Part shown: positions 6,121 to 7,480 of the stretch, piece by piece
Layout of the letters: each line of letters opens with the position of its first letter
Position numbering within the stretch: the first letter of the stretch is position 1
From: Nanobdellati archaeon
GTDB lineage: Archaea > EX4484-52 > GLR71
Assembly (NCBI GenBank): GCA_019429005.1
Contig: JAHYJR010000004.1
Span: forward strand, 65,421-77,599
DNA length: 12,179 nt
Direction: 5' to 3'
Notes under the pieces: model-generated
Database searches by the model: none
Seen by the model: the letters and a program-made list of their open reading frames with translations, nothing else
What the model was told of the DNA's origin: nothing
Program-made: the position numbers and the translations under genes

Positions 6121-7480
6121 GTATACCAAGAGAATTACCTAAATCTTTATCATCAACCATTTCCTGTGGACCAAGAATATATTGTGAATGAACACCAGTT
6201 ATAATTGTTATAACACGGATTCGTCCTCTAAGATTTTCATCAATCCTTGCACCCCAAATTGTCTGTGCATCAGAATCTAAATGTTTTGATACAAATTGAC
6301 CAATTTCATTAATTTCATTCAATTTAAGATCAGGTCCACCAGTTATATGTACAAGTGCACCTGTAGCACCATGGAAATCAACATCTAAAAGTGGATTTGA
6401 CATAGCTTCCTCAACTGCTTCTCTTGCCCTTGCAGCAGTTGATGATTCACCGACACCGACAACAGCAACACCGCCATTACTCATAACCGCTTTAACATCA
6501 GCATAATCAAGATTTACAAGAGATGGTGTTGATATTGTTTCACTGATACCTTTTATCATAGTAACTATAATTTCATCTGCAACAGCAAATGCTTGTTGAA
6601 GTGGCATTTCACCTGCAATCTCAAGAAGTTTATCATTCTCAATAACTATAACAGTATCGCATACTTGACGTAATTTTGCAAGACCTTCTTCTGCTTTAGA
6701 AATCCTACTACCTTCGATTTTAAAAGGCATTGTAACAACACCTATAACTATAGAGTTTAAAGATTTTGCTATTTTTGCAACAACAGGAGCAGCACCAGTA
6801 CCAGTTCCACCACCCATCCCAGCTATAACAAACATCATATCACAGCCTTCAATAGATTTCTTGATTTCTTGTCCAGATTCTTCTGCAGCTTGCTTACCTT
6901 TAGATGGATAACCACCAGCACCAAGACCTCGTGTTATTTCTTTTCCAATCAATATCCTTTTATTAGCATAAACAGTTTCAAGATGTTTCTTATCAGTATT
7001 TACAGCAATAGTTATAGCACCAGCCACACCCATCTTATGTAATCTACTTACACTATTATTACCTGCACCACCACAACCTACTACAACTATTTTTGCATCG
7101 TTAAGATCCTCAAAACCTGTATCTATTGATTCTTGAGGAGGCATCTGCTTTGGTTGTTCTTGTTGAACAGGTTGTGAATTATATTGTTGTGGCTGTTCAG
7201 ATACATGAGATCTAGGTTGAAATGTCTGATTTGAAGAATTATCATAAGTATTGTTATTATTATCTTGTTCTAAACTTCTATTATTATTATTATTATTATT
7301 ATTATTATTATCAAATTGATTATTATCAGATTCTGAGGAAGGTGAAAATAATGAAGGTTTTGCAGTTACAACATTTTTTTCGACCATATTAGCCATAGTA
7401 TTAGACATACTATTTCTCTCATTATTAACAATATCAGATTGTCCTATCCGCTCAATCGCATTTTTCAAAAAAGATTCCAT
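6110..7480 (-). CDS. ftsZ: Cell division protein FtsZ, copy B, with Asn/Gln-rich N-terminal extension
   Basis: FtsZ is a tubulin-like GTPase that polymerises into the division ring at mid-cell. After a short start ([14 protein letters not shown]) comes a low-complexity stretch, residues about 15-125, rich in Asn, Gln, Ser and Pro, with ten Asn in a row at 58-67. The GTPase domain starts at [15 protein letters not shown] (128-142), has the tubulin signature GGGTGTG (223-229) and the T7 loop NLDYADV (323-329). The tail is short and ends LGIRMV. Archaeal FtsZ usually has about 20-40 residues before the GTPase core, so about 90 are extra. A GTG three codons upstream is possible; the ATG at 7478-7480 is preferred because it aligns with copy A and has a TATA box near the leaderless distance. 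It lies 147 bases downstream of copy A, with which it shares about three quarters of core residues by eye. Confidence 0.95.
7280..7309 (-). repeat. Trinucleotide repeat (AAT)10 inside ftsZ copy B
   Basis: Ten uninterrupted AAT codons on the minus strand encode Asn58-Asn67. All ten use the same codon, so it is a true microsatellite. Slippage by whole units keeps the frame and only changes linker length. Confidence 0.9.

Follow-up and report, generated by a model that had tools for sequence, protein, structure and literature searches.

Copy B of a tandem ftsZ gene pair in an archaeal genome encodes a protein in which a conserved N-terminal peptide is separated from the FtsZ core by a linker of ~112 residues that is predicted to be disordered. 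This arm resembles a tether with a terminal motif, since its first ~14 residues represent a conserved peptide that is common to many archaeal FtsZ proteins. By analogy with known systems, we propose, at a probability of roughly 0.45, that copy B is an FtsZ2-type filament subunit that carries a terminal anchor peptide on a long disordered tether.

The window, i.e. the whole stretch of 12,179 nucleotides that was analyzed, originates from an archaeal genome of 1.08 Mb with 30% GC and a completeness of 93.6%, the closest named relatives of which are MAGs labelled Nanohaloarchaea, Nanohalarchaeota, Aenigmatarchaeota or DPANN archaeon. The genome contains three ftsZ genes, two of which form a tandem pair on the minus strand of the window (A, 7628-8758; B, 6110-7480), with the third located elsewhere and preceding rpl11-rpl1-rpl10-rpl12. 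Genes encoding an ATP-dependent DNA ligase and a TrmB-type regulator follow A and then B, and gatC and gatA adjoin the opposite flank of the pair. The following features were assigned.

7628..8758, minus strand: ftsZ copy A, 376 aa, TTG start at 8758, short N-terminal extension (GGAGG site; TIGR00065)
7564..7580, minus strand: candidate promoter CCGAAATATTTATAAGC (BRE/TATA pattern) 5' of copy B, recognized by eye in an AT-rich genome
7484..7489, minus strand: Shine-Dalgarno match GTGATC of copy B (duplex with the 16S tail, -8.1 kcal/mol)
6110..7480, minus strand: ftsZ copy B, 456 aa, FtsZ2-type by tree (TIGR00065; Pfam Tubulin and FtsZ_C)
7439..7480, minus strand: N-terminal peptide, conserved, residues 1-14 (83 distinct FtsZ N-termini show the motif; AlphaFold2 helix)
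7103..7438, minus strand: predicted disordered Asn/Gln/Ser/Pro-rich linker, residues 15-126, ~112 residues (pLDDT ~30; orthologous linkers; coding-type substitutions)
7280..7309, minus strand: (AAT)10 microsatellite encoding Asn10, residues 58-67
6182..7102, minus strand: FtsZ core (GTPase and C-terminal domains), residues 127-433 (Foldseek match)
6113..6181, minus strand: short C-terminal tail, residues 434-456, ending in LGIRMV (pLDDT <50; B-type signature)

Repeats were also observed at and near this locus. The long AT-rich gap between ftsZ-A and gatC PLACEHOLDER sequence at the window edge (12025-12179) comprises ~15.7 copies of the 10-bp unit AATAACTAAC with a match of 98%. Just left of the window, an open frame starting with at least eight MNYVF pentapeptides (C10:64555-65310, in L153) may not represent a gene.

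The open frame of copy B extends from the ATG at 7480 to the stop at 6110, and the first strand of the core, at residue 131, lies C-terminal to residues 1-128 (7097-7480). The protein scored 417.6 bits against TIGR00065 (curated cut-off 295.2), the GGGTGTG nucleotide-binding signature and the T7 loop NLDYAD (NxDxxD) are present in both A and B, and the best solved match of the copy B core in a Foldseek search was M. jannaschii FtsZ (2vap, E 2.7e-44). AlphaFold2 predicted a helix at residues 2-19 with low confidence (pLDDT 50-65), disorder at residues ~20-126 (pLDDT ~30), a confident core and a disordered tail of 23 residues; the same layout was obtained for the orthologue of GLR72, with a less confident helix. 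The original prediction had described an Asn/Gln-rich extension of ~125 residues containing an (Asn)10 run, together with a short C-terminal tail, and had suggested disorder prediction and a comparison of N-termini across relatives. The extension proved to be real, translated, predicted disordered and long for an FtsZ, and the Asn run and the short tail were likewise found. The notion of a disordered arm projected by copy B alone was borne out with respect to the long linker, but the arm is not bare, and its conserved, helix-forming terminal peptide had been missed.

Translation of the arm depends on the position of the start codon, and a start near residue 110 had been named as the observation that would speak against the extension. 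The GTGATC motif preceding the ATG at 7480 is complementary to the 3' end of the genome's own 16S rRNA (GGATCACCTCC), and only ~1% of random genomic 20-mers reach the energy of this duplex. Translation might instead begin internally near residue 113, where an ATG is indeed present (Met113, window 7144), and the arm would not be made. This codon yielded -0.3 kcal/mol compared with -8.1 kcal/mol at position 7480 and lacks a ribosome-binding site, and the comparison across relatives revealed that the start peptide and the reading frame of the linker are conserved: within the same family, five copy B orthologues (from G001, G002, G004, G005 and G008) start with M[RK]SFIE[SN]AL, the sequence of a sixth (G003) being cut at its 5' end. 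An internal start that deprives copy B of its arm is thus very improbable. Shine-Dalgarno scoring and the conservation of the upstream part led to the rejection of residues 113 and 25 as candidate starts.

The linker of copy B contains 22% Asn and 12% Gln, and the orthologous linkers of genus g3 contain 23-30% Gln and 6-15% Asn. The best 80-residue Asn+Gln window of copy B ranks fourth in a comparison of the genome's 831 ORF products with a minimum length of 110 aa; its richness is thus far above average but not unique. The Asn content of the linkers drops as the local GC content climbs from 29% to 40%, and therefore the Asn richness and the (AAT)10 tract appear to result from drift in base composition and from slippage, superimposed on a length and a disorder that are conserved. 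No more than six trinucleotide tracts in the genome reach seven units, and the Asn10 run probably reflects slippage in an AT-rich genome. In the linkers of the closest pair of orthologues (G003/G005), changes are distributed over the codon positions as 9/9/30 and internal indels comprise 3 or 9 nt; dN/dS ratios, calculated by a simple Nei-Gojobori script and with dS high in the wider pairs, were 0.19 in this pair and 0.15 and 0.33 in two others, in which the core yielded 0.05-0.07. The linker thus evolves as coding sequence under loose constraint.

Such a pattern bears on the view of the linker as a low-complexity expansion that is nearly neutral and need only leave the filament undisturbed. 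The poor conservation of the linkers (28-32% identity to that of window copy B), the dependence of the Asn content on genome GC and the purity of the AAT tract are in line with this explanation, but the composition remains Q/N/P-rich, the dN/dS ratios are well below 1, and the length is 105-125 residues in six orthologues, an argument that is weakened by the ~48 residues of the linker in G001. On balance, a near-neutral linker appears rather unlikely. The low-complexity composition, along with a few other Q/N-rich proteins of unassigned function in the genome, might also indicate that the arm is a sticker driving condensation or lateral association of filaments; this is quite improbable, as aromatic residues are few and the orthologous linkers vary from Asn-rich to Gln/Pro-rich. 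As a separate observation, the genome encodes three other Gln/Asn/Pro-rich proteins (L143:11571-12365, L159:2688-3440 and L164:14630-15559), for which the Pfam search yielded no family above its cut-off. One of the three has a possible N-terminal amphipathic stretch and a coiled-coil end, one has 30-residue repeats of the QNRPPQQMQPNN type, and one has NPF motifs.

The rarity of the extension was assessed in archaeal genomes. In the named-contig set, the 82 FtsZ genes among the matches listed had a median distance from start to core of 46 residues, and distances of more than 100 residues were confined there to the B-type genes of the family of the window genome. In a survey of 170 archaeal genomes, the long frames that were inspected among the matches listed outside this family and family f5 lacked a plausible start at a distance of over 100 residues from the core. 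There is strong support for the statement that one of the two FtsZ2 paralogues in this family has a linker of ~100 residues between peptide and core. FtsZ2-type proteins of family f5 in the same order (L029, L030 and L122) carry extensions of ~100 residues with a different composition after the peptide MESIIKQAL, which were apparently lengthened independently. A search for Asn/Gln-rich FtsZ extensions or arms of DPANN FtsZ proteins found none in the literature covered.

Copy A, which scored 403 bits against TIGR00065, had been regarded as devoid of an extension. It does lack the long linker, but it has an extension of its own, with 49 residues between the TTG start at 8758 and the core glycine motif, preceded by a GGAGG site with a duplex energy of -10.2 kcal/mol. 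The cores of A and B, formerly taken as near-identical, are ~74% identical when the tails are included, and the identity at third codon positions is 0.45-0.75 by block, which argues that the two copies are old paralogues. The T1, T6 and T7 loops are identical and T3-T5 nearly so, and co-polymerization of A and B appears possible. The start of copy A in G001 (MSNTLGNMVSN, L115) resembles residues 25-35 of window copy B (7376-7408) and is possibly a trace of an exchange of 5' ends between A and B.

In a phylogenetic tree, M. jannaschii FtsZ1 and the third FtsZ of the genome belong to an FtsZ1 clade (100/99), and A and B fall outside this clade, which assigns them to the FtsZ2 type in a tree that includes no named FtsZ2 reference. 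An ftsZ gene adjoining ribosomal protein genes is ftsZ1 (PMC8178401), and the gene beside rpl11 is assigned to this class; the alternative that A and B are FtsZ1 proteins was discarded on the basis of synteny and tree. In the single-copy relative G010, the neighbourhood of ftsZ includes the ligase and TrmB genes that also accompany the window pair; in genus g3, copy A lies beside gatCA and the ligase gene and copy B elsewhere; in G001, B precedes the ligase and TrmB genes and A adjoins gatCA. This neighbour pattern fits an ancestral tandem pair that was retained in the window. A clean single duplication was not recovered on the core tree, since core trees pair both window copies (94/84 in one tree, weakly in another); the topology with all B genes in one clade was borderline (AU p 0.062), and the peptide, the tail and the diagnostic sites (5 to 0) speak for shared A/B orthology. 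Either independent duplications or gene conversion affecting the cores may account for this conflict.

The N-terminal peptide is characterized by hydrophobic residues at positions 4, 5, 8 and 9, found in 92, 82, 89 and 70%, respectively, of 83 distinct FtsZ N-termini, the starts of which were picked by script and are doubtful in a few cases. A similar peptide is present on FtsZ1-type proteins, as in M. jannaschii FtsZ1, which begins with MKFLKNVLEEG, and the peptide MKHIFENV of copy A is related (M[RK]QII[ED][ND]V in the relatives of copy A). G004 and G008 share 14/14 residues of the peptide and 45% of those in the linker (Fisher p 6e-5). It is strongly supported that the peptide is old, conserved and widespread in archaeal FtsZ. 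The hydrophobic moment of the copy B peptide is 0.56, a value reached by 2.2% of the ORF N-termini of the genome, and that of the orthologous peptides is 0.32-0.45, which is not distinct from shuffles; by this measure, the peptide appears clearly amphipathic in copy B and moderately so in the orthologues.

Since amphipathicity is only moderate in the orthologues, the main rival is that the conserved peptide serves for docking to a protein of the division machinery, be it SepF, FtsZ1 or another, with the linker providing reach and membrane contact being indirect. In Anabaena, the interaction of FtsZ with SepF requires a peptide at the FtsZ N-terminus (PMC6175996). Archaeal SepF binds a C-terminal GID motif (PMC8178401), and this motif is absent from the tails of A (ending in LGIKVMR) and B (LGIRMV; B-type signature LG-x-SLGI[KR]MV) in a genome with one SepF gene and an FtsZ1 ending in LGIDFI. 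Since the third residue of the GID position varies across DPANN FtsZ2s, SepF could nevertheless bind A or B. Against a docking role, SepF binds the C-terminus of FtsZ2 in Haloferax and Odinarchaeota (PMC8187382, PMC12583498), the Odinarchaeota helix binds lipid directly (PMC12583498), and the candidate partner of the peptide is still hypothetical. Docking to a protein is conceivable, though on the unlikely side.

Direct membrane attachment of copy B is suggested by OdinFtsZ1, in which removal of the first 13 residues abolished liposome binding (PMC12583498), and by conservation of the peptide in five orthologues and, as a pattern, in the 83 N-termini. By this analogy, we infer that the copy B peptide binds the membrane directly: it would fold as an amphipathic helix at the end of the long disordered tether that leads to the filament core. 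Against this reading, the helix has a low pLDDT (45-65), the moments of the orthologues are weaker, the peptide could bind a protein instead, and the precedent is an FtsZ1 of a distant lineage, copy B being an FtsZ2. The linker would be a functional N-terminal counterpart of the C-terminal linker in bacterial FtsZ and would allow the filament to sit further from the membrane or to move more freely beneath it, with copy A staying closely tethered. Asn10 would be a recent AAT slippage within a linker whose length and disorder are the main properties retained. An extended proposal, in which this FtsZ2 paralogue attaches directly by its long-tethered N-terminus and forms mixed filaments with A, the subunit ratio setting the spacing between filament and membrane, is unlikely as a whole.

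Copy B shares features with several known systems. OdinFtsZ1 likewise has a helix-forming peptide before the core and coexists with another FtsZ and SepF (PMC12583498), but it belongs to the FtsZ1 type and its extension is short, whereas copy B is FtsZ2-type with a far longer linker and lipid binding that is proposed by analogy. The FtsZ2 proteins of Haloferax and Odinarchaeota, placed in the same clade by the tree, also coexist with FtsZ1 and SepF; they contact SepF through the C-terminus and have N-terminal extensions reported to be shorter than those of FtsZ1, whereas copy B combines a long N-terminal linker with a short tail devoid of GID. Haloferax FtsZ1 has no known anchor (PMC8187382). 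As in bacterial FtsZ, a disordered linker joins a conserved terminal peptide to the core. The conserved N-terminal extension of Anabaena FtsZ, ~50 residues in a bacterial protein, matters for polymer form and SepF contact (PMC6175996).

Whether the N-terminal helix can be used has been proposed to depend on how long the linker to the core is; FtsZ2 linkers tend to be short, which was suggested by the Odinarchaeota authors to hinder membrane attachment by the helix (PMC12583498). Copy B breaks this pattern and represents a natural exception, with its tandem sister copy A as a built-in short-linker control for the proposal. The pair thereby bears on the mode of membrane attachment of archaeal FtsZ proteins where more than one is present.
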